This document shows, piece after piece, positions 36,822 through 63,043 of a stretch of DNA of 64,000 nt. Position 1 is the stretch's first letter. Every line of letters starts with the position of its first letter. Location: the NCBI GenBank assembly GCA_964036195.1, contig OZ038451.1:14016529-14080528 (forward strand), written 5' to 3'. Made by a program: the position numbers and the translations under genes. The notes beneath the pieces are model-generated. The model was given only the letters and a program-made list of their open reading frames with translations. It was not told the DNA's origin and ran no database searches. This DNA is from Sphaerolaimus hirsutus (Eukaryota; Nematoda; Chromadorea; Monhysterida; Sphaerolaimidae).

Positions 36822-39584
36822 CGCACCAACAATGACCGCGGTGGAAGAGGCGCTCGACTCGATGTTGGGCACGTTGCAGCGCTCGATGAGCCAGGTCTCC
36901 GTGGGCGGAGTCTCGCACGCGCCCAAGGGAAACTGTGCTGCTTGTGGCAGACCCATTGTGGGACAGGTTGGGGGGGGGGTTGACTTGGGGCACTCACGGA
37001 CTGACCGGTCGTGCAAAATTCCGTGCAAATACTACGTATGGGGTTTTGGCCGACTATTGGCAGGGCCTGTATTTTTGCTAGGAGCCGCTGCCAATTTTCA
37101 GTGGTGTAATTCTGAGAAAACTCTCCCCCCCCTTGAATAACGCCCGTGGGGAATTATTATTTCGTCAGACTTTTTTGAGGAGGGAACTAATCGAGGGTGA
37201 ATTCTTCAAGGGAGGGATTATTATTTTGTCTAAATTTTTATCTCAATCTATAAGTCTATGTTTCTATCCACTCCTTCATGGAATATGCGTCATTTACACC
37301 ATAAGGTGCAATTTTTGTTCAAATTGGACACAACAAATTGATCATATGCCTTAAGGGGGAATTATTCAAGGGGTTATTATTTTCCTCACTTGTCTTACAG
37401 GGGGAATTATTCAAAGGGGTGAATTATTCAAGCAAATACGGTAGTCTCTGTCCATTTAATTCAATATAATTTTTCAACACCCAGATAGTACTGGCCCTAG
37501 ACCGCCCCTGGCACGCGGAACACTTCGTCTGCGCCCAATGTGGTGAACCCCTAGCTCACCGGGGATTCTATGAGCGCGGAGCCAAGGCCTATTGCGATGT
37601 GGATTACCACAAGCTGTTCAGTCCCAAGTGTGGCTATTGTAGCGGACCTATTAAGGAGGTTGGTGTGGTCTTGTGTTGTTGGCTTTTTTGGTCTTGTCCT
37701 TCTGTCTTTTGTCCTGTTGCACAAAAACTGACGATAATCTGTGAAGTGACAAGTACTACCGGTAAACTAACAATATAGTAAACTCATATATCAGCTTCTG
37801 AGCGCATCTGAGTTTACCGGAATGTGTCATTTTGAATCTCCGTCAACTGTAGTTGACGAACAGCTCACTTCGGTAAACTCAACCTCATTTCGTTCAAAGC
37901 TGATAAATGAGTTTACTAAATTGTTAGGTTTCCTGCAGTAAACTAGTGTGCGTAGCGCCATTATCTACACACTCCACTCAAATATCACATGCAAAATGCC
38001 TTGCCCAGCGCTGCATCACGGCCATGGACCGGCAGTGGCACGTGGAGCACTTCATGTGCGCCCAGTGCGGCCGCGAGCTGTCCGACGGCGCTTTCCACGA
38101 AAAGGACGGCAAAGCGTACTGCAGGGAGGACTTTTTCCGGCTTTTTGGACCAAGGTGTCACAATTGCCAGCAGCCGATTACTAGCGACTTTGTGACTGCA
38201 CTTGGCGCGCAGTGGCATCCAGACTGCTTGATTTGCGTGGTCAGTTGGGGTCGGGCTCTTGACCTGGCATGTCGCTTTTTTGCGGTTCAACATGCATTAT
38301 ACCATATTCCCTGAAAATACCCCCCGGGGTGATTGTGTCGTAGTGCAAATTTTGAGGGGAGTTTTTATTTCGTCAGAAATTTTCGTAAAATTCGTGAAAC
38401 CGTTCAGCAGTGTTTTCTGTATTTACTGTAATTGGCAACCGAGGAAAATACTACGGAAACTGCATTGTCGCGTTCTATGAAGTCGACCGCGGCTACTGAA
38501 TAAATACCTGCATAATGTGCCACATCTCGGAGCCGCACCTTTCACCCCTCATTAAGCCCCCCCCCATGTCGCAGGACTGCAACCGTCGCCCGGAAGACGG
38601 GCACTTCTACGCGGAACAGGGCCATCCGCTGTGCGCGCGGCACTTCCACGCCCGCCGCGGCTCCGTGTGCCACCAGTGCAAAAACCCCATCAATGGCAAG
38701 TGTGTCACCGCCATTGGCAGGTTGGTATTTTGAAGGCTTTGTTGTTGTTGTTTTTGGGGGGTGTCAAAAAATCATGTCGTCTTGAATGTTCAGCCGTTTA
38801 TTCCGCTTACTGTATCCCTAATTGATCGAAATACGGTCAAGCGATCAGTAAAAATTTACTCAAATTTAATATTTTACAGTACATTTTACATCACTTGACA
38901 TATTGCACACATTTGACGTTTGACAAAGCATTGGACATAACTTGACACTTTACATACATTTGACATTTTTCTGGGAATGTTTACATAACTTGACATAACT
39001 TTTTGACATTTTTACATATGTAACTTGACAGAACATTTTTTACATACTTTTGAAATTTTTCAGAGAATTTTACAGGGTCTGGGATTTCAGATTAATAAAT
39101 ACAGGTTAATAAATATCTTGCCACTAGGATCTTTACTTATCACTTACATACAAGTCATCTTCTCACTTGCAACGTCCATGTGCAAATCCACTGTCAACCC
39201 CCCCCCCCTCCCCCACGCAGGCGCTACCACCCGGAGCATTTCCGCTGCGCCGAGTGCTCGGCCATGCTAAACCGGAACACCTTCAAGCAGTTCGAAGACA
39301 GGCCCTATTGTTTCCGTTGTATCAGGAAACTGACCAGACCCGTGCAGCGCACCCAGGTGACAATCCCAGACCCTGTATGATGCCCTGTGAAATGTCAAAT
39401 GTCATGCAAATTGTCAAAAGTCATGTAAAATGCCCTGGAAAATGGCTAACGTACGTTTGCCATTTTCCAGGGCATTTTACACGACTTTTGACACTTTGCA
39501 TGACATTTGACATTTTACAGGGCATTTTACACGGTCTGGGATTGCCACCAGGCACCTGTGCAGGTGGCGCACAACTCTGTTTGA
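36822..39584 (+). CDS. PXN: Paxillin/Hic-5/leupaxin-type protein with four LIM domains
   Basis: This is a focal-adhesion adaptor: LIM domains target it to integrin adhesions. Exons: 36822-36966, 37485-37658, 38009-38239, 38575-38720, 39221-39356, 39552-39584 (TGA). From the ATG at 36832 it is 284 aa. Residues 8-21 (LDSMLGTLQRSMSQ) are an LD5-type motif directly before LIM1, as in paxillin. Zn-binding pairs open at C35/C38 (LIM1), C94/C97 (LIM2), C153/C156 (LIM3) and C212/C215 (LIM4); WH and HF spacings are conserved. The frame stays open to an acceptor at 36821, so 36822 may be an internal exon and LD1-LD4 exons may lie upstream, where I could not find them; alternatively this is a LIM-only form like fly PDLP. 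The last intron is a complete introner (39357-39551); after it only ten codons remain (APVQVAHNSV). Confidence 0.9.
37110..37442. mobile_element. CCGTATTnC-family remnant in paxillin intron 1
   Basis: GGGGAATTATTCAAGGGG and GAATTATTATTTCGTCAGA units end at CAAATACGGTA (37432-37442). The left terminal repeat is missing or very diverged. Confidence 0.5.
37735..37960. mobile_element. GTTGAC/CAACTGTAGTTGAC element in paxillin intron 2
   Basis: It contains AACTGTAGTTGACGAACA and GTAAACTCA words repeated in both orientations, ending AAACTAGTGTGCGTAGCGCC. It is related to 26440-26605 and 47640-47800. Confidence 0.45.
38880..39082. mobile_element. Degenerate introner-family copy in paxillin intron 4
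   Basis: Many CTTGACAT/TTTTACAT words lead to TTTACAGGGTCTGGGATTTCAG at 39061-39082, which matches the 3' terminal repeat of the introner family. The left end is not recognisable. It is part of a longer intron (38721-39220), so it is an old copy or fragment. Confidence 0.5.
39357..39551 (+). mobile_element. Introner copy 1: transposon forming the whole last intron of the paxillin gene
   Basis: The intron is 195 nt. It starts GTGACAATCCCAGACCCTG and ends GTCTGGGATTGCCACCAG. The two halves are inverted repeats over almost their whole length, meeting at AACGTACGTT. The exon before ends ACC CAG and the element is followed by a second CAG (the acceptor), consistent with a 3-bp CAG target duplication. 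Phase 0. Removing the element and one CAG leaves one uninterrupted frame. Confidence 0.85.
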
Positions 39585-43000: not shown

Positions 43001-46000
43001 TAGCACAATTTGTACATGTACCACCATCTTCAGTGTGTTTATGCACACACGCAGTAATTTTATTTTGGTACGCATTGTCGTTCATATTGTTTTTTTGTAG
43101 TTTCACGCTTTTTGAAAACCGTAAAACTGGGCCGCGTGAAAAGTTTTTTTACGCTTTTAGTACCCGGGTAATTCGGCCAGGAAAGCGTAATAAAGCGTAC
43201 AGGTATTTTATGAAAGCGTAAGCGTAAGCGTAAGTATAAATACCCATTTACCCGGGTATTTCGGGTAAGCGTAAATACGCTTTCGCAACTCTGGTATGCG
43301 CAGAATCCAACCATAATTTTATGAATAAAATCTTATATAAAACCAATTATTCCATAGTAAAAACGAAATATCATGATGAAAATGACTTTATAATTTTGGT
43401 TCATTATTCAGATGGGTTATGGTAGGTTTCCATACTAGATGTGATGTCATCCGACTATAGGTAGTTAAAAAACGCACCGCATGTTGAGCCCATCTCATAA
43501 CCGTCCTGTATTTAGTCAACTCTGCAGCATTCAAATGCGGCCTGGACAACACTAACTCAAGCACATTGGGCGAAAGTAGAGCGAATTCGTCGCGGTCCAG
43601 AACCGAATCTCCGTGTGAATCGATGAAGCTTAGCAGCTGCGATTGTACGGGGTGTGTGTTGATATTGAATTTGATGTGCATTTTGACCACTTTCTTGGAA
43701 TGAGACAATAGAAAAATTAAACATTGTTTCATTAGTTTGCCCATAGTTACATAAAATACCGTATTTATTCAAATAAGTCCCCGCTCTTGAACCATTCCCC
43801 CTGTTAGACGAGTGAGAAAAACCGACCCCCTTCAATACACCCCCCCCCCTCCCCTTAAGGCCACAGGATCAATTTTTATGTCCAAATTGAACAAAAATGG
43901 CGTGTTAGTGTGTTTATAAAGCATTTTTGTTGAATGATATGATCGAAACATGCTTGAAAATTTAAACGAAGAAATAATTCCCCCCTTGAATAATCCCCCC
44001 CCCCCCTCAGAAAGTGTGACGAAAAAAGTATTCCCCAGGGGATGGGAAACTGATCGCTTCACCAAAACAACTTACCCTCTGCATGAAGCTCTTTGTCGCT
44101 TTATAGTGGACATATCGTTCGCCAGTGGCCAGAAGCAGGCAAGCTGTTTCTGTGCAAATCATTTCGTAAGCGCATTCCTGTGCAGATTTTCTCAAATCGT
44201 CCATAGCAAAATGATCTGCCGCATTCATCAGACCTGTGAAGTGGTGTTATTATTTCTGAGATTACGGTAGTGATGCTTAGGTCGATTTCCACTTACCAAT
44301 TATAGTTTCTGGCTGGAAAGTGGTCAAACCAGTGTGCGCAAATTCTAGCAATTGCTGGAACACTGGCGGTTCGAATTCCTCGATTGTGACTATCGATTTG
44401 TTTGTGCACAGCGCTTCAAGGGCCTGTTGAATTTAAAAATTGATTAAAAATGAAAATAAATTACCATATTTCCACGGAATACACCCAGGGGGATAATCCG
44501 AGGAGGTAATAAATATAATTATAATTTCGCCAACAAATTTTGAGGGGGATAATCAAAGGGGGGCTTATTCGAGGGGTAATAAAAAGATTCAAGGGGGTTA
44601 ATTTGAGGAAATACGGTAATCTCCGTAAAAATGATGACTGAAATTGAAAAACGCAAACCTACCTCAGGTGAAATGATGCTAGCTGCCGACTTTTTATCCT
44701 GCCCGCCACTTCTCTGCGCCTGTCCATTGGCCGTCAAAATTCTCTGCAGCTTGGCAAAATTCGGCATGGCCGTTTTCGATTTCGCCTCGATTTCCGATGA
44801 TCTAGACGAACTGAATCCATTGCTGCCGGGCGATTGCAAGCCGCCCGGTTGAAAATCCCAATCGAAATTTGAATAGCTATCATTTTGGGCGCTTTTGACG
44901 TTCTGATAAATGGCCTGGAGGCAATCCCAGACGCTGTAAAATGCCGTGTAAAATGTCAAATGTCATGCAAAGTGTCAAAACTCACATAAAATGCCCTGCA
45001 AAATAGCGACTCGGTCGTCATTTTGCAGGGCAGTTTGCGTGACTTTTGACACTTTGCATGACATTTTACATTTTACAGGGCACTTTACAGGGTCTGGGAC
45101 TGACACCTGGGTTATGCCGGCGTTGGCTAAATTCTGGTAGTGATTCGTGTGAGACGCGCGCGCGGCTGCGGACCGAGGGCCGCACAGCAGCTTGTAGAAC
45201 ACTCTGTTGAATAGTGATAATGATTATGAACTGGATCGGTTCATAATGTCATGAATAGTGGCGTAAGCGCTCTTGGCGCTTGGCGCCATGCCCATGAAAA
45301 GCGTCATAGCGCTATTTTTTGTGGCGCTACAAAATTCCTGGCGCTGGCGCTACTGGCGCTGGGCGTCGAAAAACCGCCATGACGCTTGGGCTTTGGCGCC
45401 AACGTCCTGGCGCTTTTACATCACTAGTCATGACTCACATGCTTCACACACAAACGCTCAAAACAGACCTGCTTCTAACAGCCAAAATGGCCCTAACACC
45501 CAGCACTGGCACCTTGTCCTTGCCCACGATGAACACCACGTCGCACAGGTGCGGCACGGCCGCCAACCTGCGCAGGTCGGTCACCAGCGACGGCAGGTTG
45601 TGGAAACCCTGCAAGATTGGTGGATATACATATAAATGGTTACCTGAATAGGCATTCAGCTCACTATGAATTGTTCATAAAAACTATGAAGTGTTTGCAT
45701 TCATGTTTATTGGAGCGATTGTATTTATTTAGTGAAAAAATGGAGTTAGATTCCAATTCAAATATTTAGTCTGTTTCATATCCCCTTTAATTTGCGTGCA
45801 GCTCAAAGTTCTATCTATTTGTTAGACCTTTGGCATGTCATCAAATGGAAATTTATTCAACGAGATATTTATTTACATCGTTCGAAATAGTCGTATTGAT
45901 CCGAACTTCATACTCCACAACAATCTACCGTATTTCCTCGAATTACCCCCGGAGGGTTTAGTTTTTCAGTGAAAATTTTGAGCGGGGGTTAAACGAGGAG

Positions 46001-46741
46001 GGTATTTCGAGGAAACACAAAAAAACACCCAGCTTGTTACCACCACTAAACTCTCAAATCCGAAACACTCACCTCCAAACACAGAGAATCATCGTCCCGC
46101 CCCTTGTCACACTTCGACCCGCCAGCCGCACTTTCACTGGCGCAACTAGAGGCATTCGAACCGTCGTTCGACACGGTCGCATAATGACTGTGGCTCGAAT
46201 TTCTACCCAAACTGTTGACGATTATGTCGCTGGCGATATTGCCCGCTTGCACGTGAGTTGACTGGGGGCAATCCCAGACCCTGTAAATGACCATGTAAAA
46301 TGTAAAATGTCATGTAAAAGTGTCAAAAGTCATGGGAAATGCCCTGCAAAATGGCAAACGTACGTTTGCCATTTTGTAGGGCATTTTACATGACTTTTGA
46401 CAGTTTGCATGACATTTTACATTTTACAGGGCCTTTTACAAGGGCTGGGATTGGCACCTGGTTTCCGGTACGATTTATGGTGGAATATTCGGCTGGCATG
46501 GCGAGTTTTAGACTGGAAAATGAAGTGGGGAAAATTGGTGGGATGGAAGGTGTTATTGAAAGCATCCGTTGAAGATTTATTTGGTGAAGGCTATAAGAAT
46601 TCTAACGTCATTATTGCTGTGGAAATAGTTTTCGCACCGGAGGCCACCCAATTTGTCGCGCGTGCGTGGATTTGCCGGATTTGCACAATTCGCGCGATTG
46701 CAAAAAGTGTCAAGCAACGAGCGCCGCAAGGTGGATGACAT
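40053..46741 (-). CDS. gprs: BTB-BACK 'serine-enriched protein' (Drosophila gprs type), 13 exons, 790 aa
   Basis: This is a BTB/POZ-BACK protein of the arthropod serine-enriched group. BTB-BACK proteins often act as CUL3 adaptors, but no function is proved for this group. Exons 5' to 3': 46741-46638, 46512-46458, 46261-46073, 45608-45469, 45203-45107, 44914-44663, 44423-44297, 44233-44076, 43636-43478, 42081-41923, 41470-41278, 41054-40627, 40364-40053 (TGA). All phases agree. BTB residues about 117-195 (LVTDLRRLAAVPHLCDVVFI, VRAILAVRSRVFYKLL) and 290-322 (VTIEEFEPPVFQQLLEF) are split by a Ser/Gln-rich insert. Then LMNAADHFAMDDLR, the BACK region to residue 480 (FHEIPASVLMTEIRP, ALAYQ, ADPSSVD), and a long Ser/Thr-rich tail. 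An ATG at 46762 is an alternative start. Two of its introns (46457-46262 and 45106-44915) are introners. Confidence 0.85.
40545..40600. repeat. Short palindrome GTTGACACATGTGTCAAC
   Basis: GGCGGCC, CACTAGTTGACACA and their reverse complements make a hairpin of about 50 bp at 40539-40592, in the last intron of the BTB gene. It is a miniature of the GCTAGTTGAC family. Confidence 0.55.
42126..42402. mobile_element. Rearranged relative of the 545-bp palindrome
   Basis: It starts GGAATTAGAGCTCAGCGTCG like the arm at 34922, then jumps to the AACAACTTGACATTTCACG-type centre and ends in the GTATTGGACACGATTAAGG segment. One arm is thus incomplete. It lies in the BTB gene intron 42082-43477. Confidence 0.7.
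42450..43310. repeat. GCGTAAGCGTAA-rich repeats and a CCGTATTACC element
   Basis: Runs of AAGCGTAAGCGTAAGCGTA occur at 42487-42620 and 43120-43290, with the sense reversed in places. Between them a CCGTATTnC-family element spans 42752-42924 (CCGTATTACCTTGAATTATC to GGTATTTCGAGGTAATACGG). All is intronic in the BTB gene. Confidence 0.6.
43757..44035. mobile_element. CCGTATTnC-family fragment
   Basis: It begins TACCGTATTTATTCAAATAAG and contains CCCCCTTGAATAATCCCCCC. The right terminal repeat is not seen. It lies in the BTB gene intron 43637-44075. Confidence 0.45.
44462..44620. mobile_element. CCGTATTnC-family element, short
   Basis: It begins TACCATATTTCCACGGAATAC and ends TTTGAGGAAATACGGTAA, with GGGGGGCTTATTCGAGGGG inside. 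It lies in the BTB gene intron 44424-44662. Confidence 0.55.
44915..45106 (-). mobile_element. Introner copy 2: transposon forming a whole intron of the BTB gene
   Basis: Read on the minus strand, the 192-nt intron starts GTGTCAGTCCCAGACCCTG and ends GCGTCTGGGATTGCCTCCAG. The upstream exon ends ACC CAG and the downstream exon starts GCC. Phase 0. It is a hairpin over its length like copy 1, with a different loop (GACCGAGTC). It separates BTB exons 5 and 6. Confidence 0.85.
45256..45426. mobile_element. TAGTG...CACTA element with GGCGC-rich core
   Basis: It begins TAGTGGCGTAAGCGC and ends CTTTTACATCACTA. The core repeats GGCGCTGGCGC-like words. It lies in the BTB gene intron 45204-45468. Confidence 0.55.
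45928..46018. mobile_element. Short CCGTATTTC element
   Basis: It starts TACCGTATTTCCTCGAATTAC and ends GGTATTTCGAGGAAACAC. About 90 bp, one of the smallest copies. It lies in the BTB gene intron 45609-46072. Confidence 0.6.
46262..46457 (-). mobile_element. Introner copy 3: transposon forming a whole intron of the BTB gene
   Basis: Read on the minus strand, the 196-nt intron starts GTGCCAATCCCAGCCCTTG and ends GTCTGGGATTGCCCCCAG. The upstream exon ends AAC CAG and the downstream exon starts TCA. Phase 0. Its loop AACGTACGTT is the same as in copy 1. It separates BTB exons 2 and 3. Confidence 0.85.
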
Positions 46742-49100: not shown

Positions 49101-50690
49101 CATTCTGTGTGGTATAGGTTTTGTGATATGATAGTGTGGTTTTTGCAAGGTGTCAAACTTTGTTGTAATCTTCAATTGGTTACATTTGTGCTTTGCTGTT
49201 CTTTTTGTGTTTGTAAATCCTTGTGGTATAAATTGTAGAGAACCACAAAACCCAACTGAAGGTTGGAGAGAATCCTGCTATAGGTACCCACTACTCAGAG
49301 GCTTGCAAAAACTGACACCCCAATGGGGACCCCCCTCCAAATGGCACCCCCTGGGGAACCTCCCAAAAGTGGCACCCCCTGGGAACCGCCCAAAAATGGG
49401 ACCTCCTAGGGCCCCACAAATATGGCACCCCCTGAGGACCACCAGAAAATGGCACCCCTTAGGGACCCCCCAAAAATGGCACCCCCTTGGGACCCCATAA
49501 AAATAGCACCCCCTGGGGACCCCCCAAACATGGCACCCCCTAGGAACCCCCACAAAAATGGCACCCCCTGGGGACCCACCCAAAGTTGGCTCCCCCTGGG
49601 GACTCTCCAAAAATGGCACCCCCCTGGGAACCCTGTGCATTCTGTGTGGTATAGGTTTTGTGATATGATAGTGTGGTTTTTGCAAGGTGTCAAACTTTGT
49701 TGTAATCTTCAATTGGTTACATTTGTGCTTTGCTGTTCTTTTTGTGTTTGTAAATCCTTGTGGTATAAATTGTAGAGAACCACAAAACCCAACTGAAGGT
49801 TGGAGAGAATCCTGCTATAGGTACCCACTACTCAGAGGCTTGCAAAAACTGACACCCCAGTGGGGACCCCCCTCCAAATGGCACCCCCTGGGGAACCTCC
49901 CAAAAGTGGCACCCCCTGGGAACCGCCCAAAAATGGGACCCCCTAGGGCCCCACAAATATGGCACCCCCTGAGGACCACCAGAAAATGGCACCCCTTAGG
50001 GACCCCCCAAAAATGGCACCCCCTTGGGACCCCATAAAAATAGCACCCCCTGGGGACCCCCCAAACATGGCACCCCCTAGGAACCCCCACAAAAATGGCA
50101 CCCCCTGGGGACCCACCCAAAGTTGGCTCCCCCTGGGGACTCTCCAAAAATGGCACCCCCCTGGGGACCCTGTGCATTCTGTGTGGTATAGGTTTTGTGA
50201 TATGATAGTGTGGTTTTTGCAAGGTGTCAAACTTTGTTGTAATCTTCAATTGGTTACATTTGTGCTTTGCTGTTTTTTTTGTGTTTGTAAATCCTTGTGG
50301 TATAAATTGTAGAGAACCACAAAACCCAACTGAAGGTTGGAGAGAATCCTGCTATAGGTACCCACTACTCAGAGGCTTGCAAAAACTGACACCCCAATGG
50401 GGACCCCCCTCCAAATGGCACCCCCTGGGGAACCTCCCAAAAGTGGCACCCCCTGGGAACCGCCCAAAAATGGGACCCCCTAGGGCCCCACAAATATGGC
50501 ACCCCCTGAGGACCACCAAAAAATGGCACCCCTTAGGGACCCCCCAAAAATGGCACCCCTTAGGGACCCCCCAAAAATAGCACCCCTGGGGACCCCCCAA
50601 ACATGGCACCCCCTAGGAACCCCCACAAAAATGGCACCCCCTGGGGACCCACCCAAAGTTGGCTCCCCCTGGGGACTCTACAAAACCCAA
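49101..50690. repeat. 537-bp tandem repeat, two full copies and a partial third
   Basis: The same word (CATTCTGTGTGGTATAGG) recurs at 49101, 49638 and 50175, exactly 537 bp apart, and the copies differ at only a handful of positions. Each unit has a unique leader of about 230 bp and a body of roughly 27-30-bp GC-rich units (ATGGCACCCCCTGGGGACCC). Because 537 is a multiple of three, long open frames repeat in several frames; I do not regard them as genes. Confidence 0.9.
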
Positions 50691-56348: not shown

Positions 56349-56990
56349 TTGAGTTAATCGAGATTCGCACCTGATTTTGAAGATTGATCAGACGCGATTT
56401 CAGTGAGTGACGAACACTGACAAAGATTATTATAACACTTGTTGTCCACTGAGACATTTCATGTAAATAAGCGAGATCGCCGAAACATAAGCCAATCACA
56501 ACCCTAATAAATGTACAAAATTGGGGCACAAACTGCACGGGGTCGCCAGCACTACGAATAAACACGCGGTAGTGACCACACACGCGGCACATCATCATGG
56601 TATTTATGCAGTACGTAGGGCCGCACAGCGTGCCTAAATGCAAACACGAGATTTGGAGCCTTAGCAATGATATTGAACGGTCACGCTAGCAAACACCGAA
56701 TTCCCATATAGCAATCATTAGTCCAAGCGCCGCTCCCAGACCCTGTAAAATGCCCTGTCAAATTGCAAAGATCGTTGGCCATTTTACATGACTTTTGACA
56801 CTTTGCATGACATTTTACATTTTATAGCGTCTATGAGTGCCCCCAGCGCATTACAAAGCGACGAACCAAGTGAACACACCCAACAAAGAACCAGACAGGT
56901 GCTATTGTCCGAGCAAATATTTCTATCCAGTAGGATGATACACAATACAGGGGCATGAATATTTACATAAATAGATGCCGGAAACCTGCA
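56349..56990 (-). CDS. Possible exons of a multi-pass membrane protein
   Basis: I do not recognise this gene. Minus-strand open segments at about 56990-56830 (hydrophobic, APVLCIILLD and LVLCWVCSLGSSLCNALG) and about 56627-56349 (CINTMMMCRVCGHYRVFI, FCTFIRVVIGLCFGDLAYL, TTSVIIIFVSVRHSLKSR) have good codon choice, pyrimidine-rich acceptors and a CAG|GTGCGA donor at 56349. The pattern of hydrophobic stretches suggests a membrane receptor or transporter. A degenerate introner-family sequence (56735-56840) lies between the two segments. Start, end and frame joins are not established, and it may not be a gene. Confidence 0.2.
56735..56840. mobile_element. Truncated introner-family copy
   Basis: CTCCCAGACCCTGTAAAATGCCCTG at one end and CATTTTATAGCGTCTATGAGTGCCCCCAG at the other are inverted, about 105 bp in total, half the normal length. 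Neither orientation gives a clean GT...CAG with CAG duplication, so this copy is not an intact introner. Confidence 0.6.
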
Positions 56991-62200: not shown

Positions 62201-63043
62201 ATACATACATATAGAAAGACCGGCACGCCATTCGGTGTATTTTAGAGAATTGACACTACGAGGACCGATTTACTTATAAAATACCTGTGCGATAGAAAAA
62301 TGCGGGAAAATGAACCTACATGTGCACCGGGTTTATATGCACACCGGCACAGGGTCCTTCAGAATCTACCTGATGCTGACAACGGCGAACATGGTCTTGC
62401 GGTCGATGATGCCGCGGAACATGGACACGGCCCTGGGGTGGAGCGACGTGAGCGGCAGCGTCCGGCCGGGCATGAGCACCACGTGCGGCACTGGGAACAG
62501 CGGCACGTTGTCCAACTGCTCGCCCGGCTCGTAGACCGTACGTTCTGCTACTAGGTCTTCCAAGTCGCCGCCGAGGTACTGGGGGAGCGGAAAATGCAGT
62601 GTACCAATTGCACATTTCACCCAATCGTAACTCCGCTAGCGTAAAATTCCCAAATTGTTCGAACAAATAAGTAGTCATAAATTTTCAACGAAAATTCACG
62701 CCAAGCGGATACTACCATTTTATTTTGTTCATCCCTGAAACTACTCGTCTTGCCACCAGGTGCCAGTCCCAGACGCTGTCAAGTGCCCTGTAAAATGTCT
62801 TGCAAAGTGTCAAAAGTCATTTAAAATGCCCTGTAAAATGGCAGCTCGGTTGCCATTTTGCAGGGTATTTTACATGACTTTTGACACTTTGCATTGACAT
62901 TTGACATTTTACAGGGTCTGTGACTGCCCTCGACTCGGTAGCGCATTTGCCCCAGCCGAACGAACTCTGTGCCTGGCTGGCATGGCCTTGTCGAAGGTGA
63001 CCTGCCGCCGCCGAGCAGAGTGTCTGGCAGCGCGCACGTCAAC
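59234..63043 (-). CDS. CRBN: Cereblon, CRL4 substrate receptor (9 exons, first exon not found)
   Basis: Cereblon binds DDB1 and recruits substrates to the CUL4 ubiquitin ligase; its CULT domain binds cyclic-imide degrons and thalidomide. Exons 5' to 3': 63043-62966, 62578-62370, 61913-61734, 61356-61189, 60880-60773, 60598-60490, 59978-59876, 59800-59710, 59495-59234 (TGA); 435 codons, all in phase. Markers: [23 protein letters not shown] domain [36 protein letters not shown], and a CULT domain with zinc pairs YNCAGC and TCSTC. It has [20 protein letters not shown] and the tri-Trp pocket NSWFPGYAW...GWMF. Human Val388 is Ile here and His378 is Asn. The N-terminal exon is missing from what I can read; the region to 64000 holds repeats. 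The tail after VPVRRG is unusual, and a donor at VQ-GTACCT could add another exon. Confidence 0.94.
62030..62215. mobile_element. hAT MITE fragment in a cereblon intron
   Basis: GTTTACTGAGCCCGG, a C tract, GGCACTGGCACCATTGGCG and a TACATACATATAG stretch match the interior of the CAGGGACGTA hAT family. The terminal repeats are absent. It lies in intron 61914-62369. Confidence 0.55.
62760..62931. mobile_element. Introner-family copy inside a longer cereblon intron
   Basis: On the plus strand it reads CAG|GTGCCAGTCCCAGACGCTG through a hairpin to GGGTCTGTGACTGCCCTC. The gene is on the minus strand, and the real intron (62965-62579) is larger, using other splice sites. The second CAG is lost. This is an inserted copy that is not acting as an exact intron. 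Confidence 0.7.

Follow-up and report, generated by a model that had tools for sequence, protein, structure and literature searches.

From its sequence, the proposed last intron of a paxillin-like gene of Sphaerolaimus hirsutus is judged, with a probability of about 0.88, to be an introner: one copy of a DNA transposon that is non-autonomous and belongs to the NuwaI-like MITEs of the PHIS superfamily. The gene lies in the window, which is the whole stretch of 64,000 nucleotides that was analysed (G000:C2:14016529-14080528; the assembly comprises 348,482,957 bases). Positions 39354-39551 read CAG followed by GTGACAATCCCAGACCC...GGTCTGGGATTGCCAC and a further CAG, so that a 192-bp near-perfect palindrome (39357-39548) is flanked by two duplicate CAGs, and positions 39357-39551, which comprise the element and the second CAG, are compatible with a GT-AG intron. 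The original prediction of a hairpin element with CAG duplicates at this site was thus borne out by the sequence, by the complementarity of the arms (39353-39452 versus 39453-39552; 91% over 100 nt, no spacer) and by folding tests. As DNA, the folding of the 195-nt stretch beats that of 200 out of 200 dinucleotide shuffles (z -23.1), and as RNA it reaches -146.6 kcal/mol (z -23.6). The gene is paxillin-like, as predicted: paxillin alpha is the only match among solved structures at E<=1e-20 (E 1.5e-38, exons joined by eye).

Excision of positions 39357-39551 joins ...KLTRPVQRTQ to APVQVAHNSV and a stop codon, which reproduces the single open frame (RTQ then APVQ) of the original prediction, but 195 nt correspond to 65 codons and the paxillin frame is open with or without removal (read without excision, the tail is RTQVTIPDPV and stop). 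For this reason we rejected the open frame as proof of splicing here. The last LIM match ends at residue 83, and the junction follows residue 92 of 102, nine residues further on in an unconserved tail. Since the length is frame-neutral and the junction lies past the LIM match, frame and homology are weak proof at the paxillin site alone, and we infer the splicing of this copy from its membership in the element family.

This family is abundant. Its GT end (GTGNCANTCCCAGACC) has 5,521 exact matches in the 348-Mb genome, compared to 2 for the backward control, and its other end (GGGGCANTCCCAGACC, GGGGC) has 4,112, compared to none; CAGGTGNCAATCCCAGACC has 580 matches and its backward control none. 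Fifty-six full-length copies yield a consensus of 192 bp, with two 96-nt arms that are identical at 93 of 96 positions and differ only at positions 2, 4 and 7 (GTGCCAA versus GGGGCAG); one of these differences creates the GT of the putative donor. Length, absence of coding capacity, inverted repeats, target duplication and high copy number all characterize the family as a MITE. The proposal that the terminal inverted repeat supplies the GT consequently stands for one end (GTGCC) and fails for the other (GGGGC), although the paxillin copy itself is GT-initial on both strands. Copies diverge from the consensus by a median of 6.2%; the value for the paxillin copy, 6.25%, gives only loose support to the predicted recent gain.

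Genome-wide, the flank adjoining the GT end is CAG in 580 cases and CTG in 564 (p 0.66). Flanks on both sides were recorded for 91 copies, namely those that were read and oriented by a GT end, and these are not a fair sample of duplicates because 30 loci were picked for CAG and 28 for its absence, and copies in which neither end has T as its second base were excluded. They comprise 29 CAG/CAG, 18 CTG/CTG, 13 CTG/CAG, 6 CAG/CTG and 25 other combinations. Sixty-six of the 91 carry CWG on both sides, with identical triplets in 47 and mixed ones (CAG on one side, CTG on the other) in 19; L028, L029, L032, L037, L058 and L020:3685 are examples of the latter. A W:W mismatch in the pairing of CWG overhangs at insertion would yield such mixed duplicates. 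The claim that a duplicated CAG provides the 3' AG therefore applies to the paxillin copy and does not extend to the whole family, in which the duplicate is CWG and not always CAG. Copies also occur in clusters, with five CTG-flanked GT ends on the same strand within 1.3 kb at G000:C1:31369466-31370765, and a Ras-like gene (L019) surrounded by four copies in a span of 3.2 kb. Four further loci (L045, L046, L052 and L055) start with GTGCCAATCCCAGACC and have a different interior (TGTAAAGTGCAAAGTAAAGTGTC..., AATAAAATCTTTT); they apparently form a second subfamily.

To assess copies in conserved coding sequence, the element and one duplicate were removed and the joined flanks were compared with Pfam and with solved structures. 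At 13 sites in other genes (see the Table), excision restores a protein whose match to known relatives runs through the junction, either above the Pfam cut-off or by alignment, and in all 13 the GT end is the 5' one on the coding strand. If orientation were random this would occur by chance once in 8,192, but it should be noted that most of these sites were chosen by eye ahead of testing and that two of the screens covered GT-first splices only. The coding sequence is unchanged after excision, with gap-free junctions in the nicotinic receptor, SLC6 and AMPK-gamma, and likewise in GRK2. Seven of the 13 sites have CTG/CTG duplicates and hence no 3' AG at the border. The introner reading of the original prediction thus holds at the level of the family. 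The TSP1 insertion is common to two paralogues, L012 and L014, located about 34 kb apart, which makes it older than their duplication, unless it was copied with it. Outside the 13, about nine sites gave weak or one-sided matches: PDZ (L017), LRR (L031), cadherins (L041), calpain (L051), vinculin (L016), zinc finger (L086), sterol-sensing (L056), VWA (L111) and MFS (L098); a tally that mixed strict and weak forward sites came to 22. The Pfam search of the joined flanks gave no match for three candidates, AMP-binding L054:2752, VWA L011 and L019:1164. The last of these lies in the Ras-like gene with GGGCC on its 5' side in the coding sense; it may be a GG-first coding copy, and as such a counter-example to the orientation rule.

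Features of the window and copies of the element in conserved coding sequence. Positions are those of the window; the fourth column gives the triplets flanking the element.
Feature	Position	Strand	Triplets	Basis
Paxillin exon: end of the last LIM domain and tail ...KLTRPVQRTQ	39222..39356	+		translation, homology
First CAG of the target duplication; last exon bases 5' of the intron	39354..39356	+		sequence reading
Palindromic NuwaI-like miniature element, GT end leading; proposed last paxillin intron	39357..39548	+	CAG/CAG	sequence, arm complementarity, folding, consensus
Second CAG copy, putative source of the 3' AG	39549..39551	+		sequence reading
Proposed last paxillin exon, APVQVAHNSV and stop	39552..39584	+		open frame only, without homology
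Degraded family remnants within the preceding paxillin intron	38871..39086	.		sequence comparison
Third copy, GT end first, between two BTB-coding stretches of the BTB/BACK gene	44918..45106	-	CAG/CAG	flanking peptide without Pfam match
Second copy, GT end first, upstream of the BTB exon of the minus-strand BTB/BACK gene	46265..46457	-	CAG/CAG	flanking peptide without Pfam match
Truncated family copy	56734..56827	.		sequence comparison
Diverged copy, right duplicate absent	62760..62930	+	left CAG	sequence reading
Nicotinic receptor, site 1			CAG/CAG	PF02931, E 1.1e-37; gap-free to human alpha-7
Nicotinic receptor, site 2, 45 codons further			CTG/CTG	PF02931, E 1.1e-37; gap-free to human alpha-7
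Rhodopsin-type GPCR, L004 and L020			CTG/CTG	Pfam and alignment across junction
TSP1, L014			CAG	Pfam match across junction
GT92			CAG/CAG	Pfam E 3.6e-11
CHGN			CTG/CTG	Pfam E 3.2e-9
Trypsin			CTG/CTG	Pfam E 1.9e-10
Oxysterol-binding protein (OSBP)			CTG/CAG	Pfam E 5.1e-34
PLOD			CTG/CTG	Pfam E 4.5e-29
M14 carboxypeptidase			CTG/CAG	Pfam E 6.5e-16
SLC6			CTG/CTG	Pfam E 8.3e-35; gap-free to GlyT2
AMPK-gamma			CTG/CTG	alignment, gap-free at junction
GRK2 N-terminus			CAG/TAG	alignment across junction; without Pfam match

The orientation of the copies was also examined with both directions in competition. The 86 copies used gave 212 open joined stretches, counting both orientations; all were scored with a codon model, and 94 were submitted to Pfam, whereas 114 with lower scores and 4 duplicates were left out. 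At an E-value of 0.05, matches were obtained for 14 of 54 GT-first stretches compared to 1 of 40 others (Fisher p 0.0017), in a test that is not fully blind because the training set of the codon model, 847 codons, came from peptides that had already been recognised in the GT-first sense. The single match in the other class is L098, the coding strand of which reads CAG followed by GTGGCC because its other end also carries GT; its reassignment to the GT-first class lowers the p-value to 0.00014. Above the curated Pfam cut-offs there are 7 GT-first matches and none in the other orientation. Within the window, the three intact CAG/CAG copies are all GT-first on the strand of the gene and therefore all in the intron-compatible sense.

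These observations suggest how the element may generate introns. It inserts at CWG with duplication of the three target bases, and its GTG end would then serve as a U2-type 5' splice donor (exonic CAG followed by GTGCC), while the duplicated CAG beyond the far end (CCCCCAG) would provide the 3' acceptor and the hairpin would draw both ends together. An insertion at CAG would in this way become an instant intron and leave the mRNA unaltered. Insertions at CTG would use the same donor, with an intron ending in CTG, and our best guess is that many CTG copies are removed as GT-TG introns. Since NuwaI elements duplicate CWG and usually begin with GGG (PMC4482050, in the portion available), the GTG end is most readily seen as a derived donor: the change of one terminal repeat from the usual GGG to GTG may have made the element spliceable and allowed it to spread through genes. 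The most complete form of this model is that the tip change created an introner that is spliced out at either type of CWG, leaving as a GT-AG intron when the target is CAG and as a GT-TG intron when it is CTG. The 96-bp hairpin would keep the ends together and render the 3' AG dispensable, so that new introns would be seeded at any exonic CAG or CTG on the right strand. To this complete form we assign somewhat less than an even chance.

Alternatively, the CTG copies could be spliced as GT-AG introns at an AG within the far arm, with a few additional codons remaining in the mRNA; we regard this as a serious possibility on the lower side of even. Five of the eight CTG/CTG sites tested indeed allow an in-frame, stop-free splice of this kind from the first GT, with the addition of 18 nt in the nicotinic receptor, 9 in the GPCR, 21 in AMPK-gamma, 30 in trypsin and 21 in PLOD. 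However, several AGs are on offer at each site and five of eight is approximately the chance expectation, while the extra residues would interrupt invariant stretches such as VGYAVGL-GNVWRFPY (the hyphen marks the junction). At the CHGN, SLC6 and L056 sites the first GT allows no splice of this kind; the only options are GC donors or GT donors located deeper that retain at least 54 nt, and the sequence at these three favours a TG acceptor over an internal AG.

Two further explanations dispense with intron creation altogether. The element could be a plain MITE, with the paxillin copy retained in the mRNA, where it would replace the last ten residues by VTIPDPV, and with the other genic copies being damaging or residing in pseudogenes. 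This is compatible with an unspliced paxillin frame that runs open to a nearby stop, with the unconserved tail and with the equal numbers of genome-wide CAG and CTG flanks, but damaging insertions would be expected in either orientation, and both the uniform orientation of the 13 sites and the Pfam matches in the two-orientation test contradict this. Moreover, the same GPCR insertion is present in two assembled copies (L004 and L020) and the TSP1 insertion is shared by paralogues, and we therefore consider the plain MITE improbable. Even less probable, to the point of being very hard to sustain, is that the introns existed beforehand and the element arrived later near both splice sites. The preceding paxillin intron does contain degraded copies, but at the 13 sites the element plus one duplicate accounts for the entire gap between conserved codons, with no leftover intron on either side.

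As a possible source of mobility, which in NuwaI is an autonomous element with a DDE transposase and a Myb/SANT protein, the genome was searched for DDE_Tnp_4 and 20 loci (L059-L078) were read. They represent a PIF/Harbinger-type family, with more than 100 members among the matches listed; the 20 are mostly about 98% alike and have the ends GGCCCCACGCACACTAGTTTACTGGCG in A/T-rich flanks. This family has a transposase domain of the PHIS type, but we rejected it, a TWA Harbinger family, as the source because its ends (GGCCCCAC...) differ and its flanks are A/T-rich and not CWG. PIF/Harbinger proper was rejected as the class of the element since the duplicates of the element are CAG or CTG and not TWA. 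Apart from one separate copy of the element, no introner-type ends were seen in the 20 loci, and no transposase with ends like those of the introner was found among them.

Introners derived from DNA transposons are established, and the accessible text of PMC9860276 reports them from two animal groups, of which copepods are named, and from no plants, so that introners in animals are not unheard of. Those introners resemble the present element in forming repeated families whose ends coincide with splice boundaries, in their terminal inverted repeats and target duplications, and in carrying one splice site while the other comes from the duplicate and mRNA length is unchanged. The same text reports no homology among the introners of distant species, and NuwaI or PHIS, CWG duplicates and a whole-length palindrome are not named in it. 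NuwaI elements, in turn, are described in the available part of PMC4482050 as PHIS elements restricted to animals and not as makers of introns; the present element shares with them the CWG duplication, while of its two ends one reads GGGGC and the other GTGCC. The GT-TG ends proposed for the CTG copies have a parallel in the Micromonas introners IE-B and IE-D (25 and 6 members, 100 to 6,494 nt), although this is an alga and, in the text at hand, its authors prefer reverse splicing to transposition (PMC3879977). A TG acceptor is also known at alternative sites in human genes, according to the available part of PMC2374985. The Amoebophrya introners, as far as covered by the accessible text of PMC7789003, are similar in their inverted repeats (8-20 nt), in the direct repeats of 3-5 nt that border the exons, in their predicted stem-loops and in their non-canonical ends, whereas they belong to a dinoflagellate, their splice dinucleotides are not fixed and family-specific repeats are absent.

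Among the papers listed in a search of the open-access literature, none mentioned both NuwaI and introners. Intron-making of this manner is known, including animal and GT-TG cases, while its occurrence in this animal and the splice ends seen here seem to be new. As far as that literature shows, three features are new: the assignment to NuwaI, the CWG rule, with copies at CTG inside conserved exons, and an asymmetry of a full palindrome that is confined to its tip. This is important because the origin of introns is a long-standing question, and here one family contributes over 5,000 exact GT ends to an animal genome. Because the transposon group has a name, the target is defined and one change in an otherwise perfect palindrome yields the predicted splice donor, the birth of introns becomes testable in an animal, which opens comparisons of CAG with CTG insertions, of GT with GG orientation, and of the hairpin as a substitute for the 3' AG.

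Two observations concern other sequences. The mitochondrial contig (L079, translation table 5) carries COX1 and ATP6 on one strand and ND1 and ND2 on the other, as assigned by eye, with a repeated stretch after ATP6. In the window, positions 49135-50580 contain near-identical open frames with a period of 537 bases, which form a long tandem repeat with many GGAIF/PRGCHF-like motifs.
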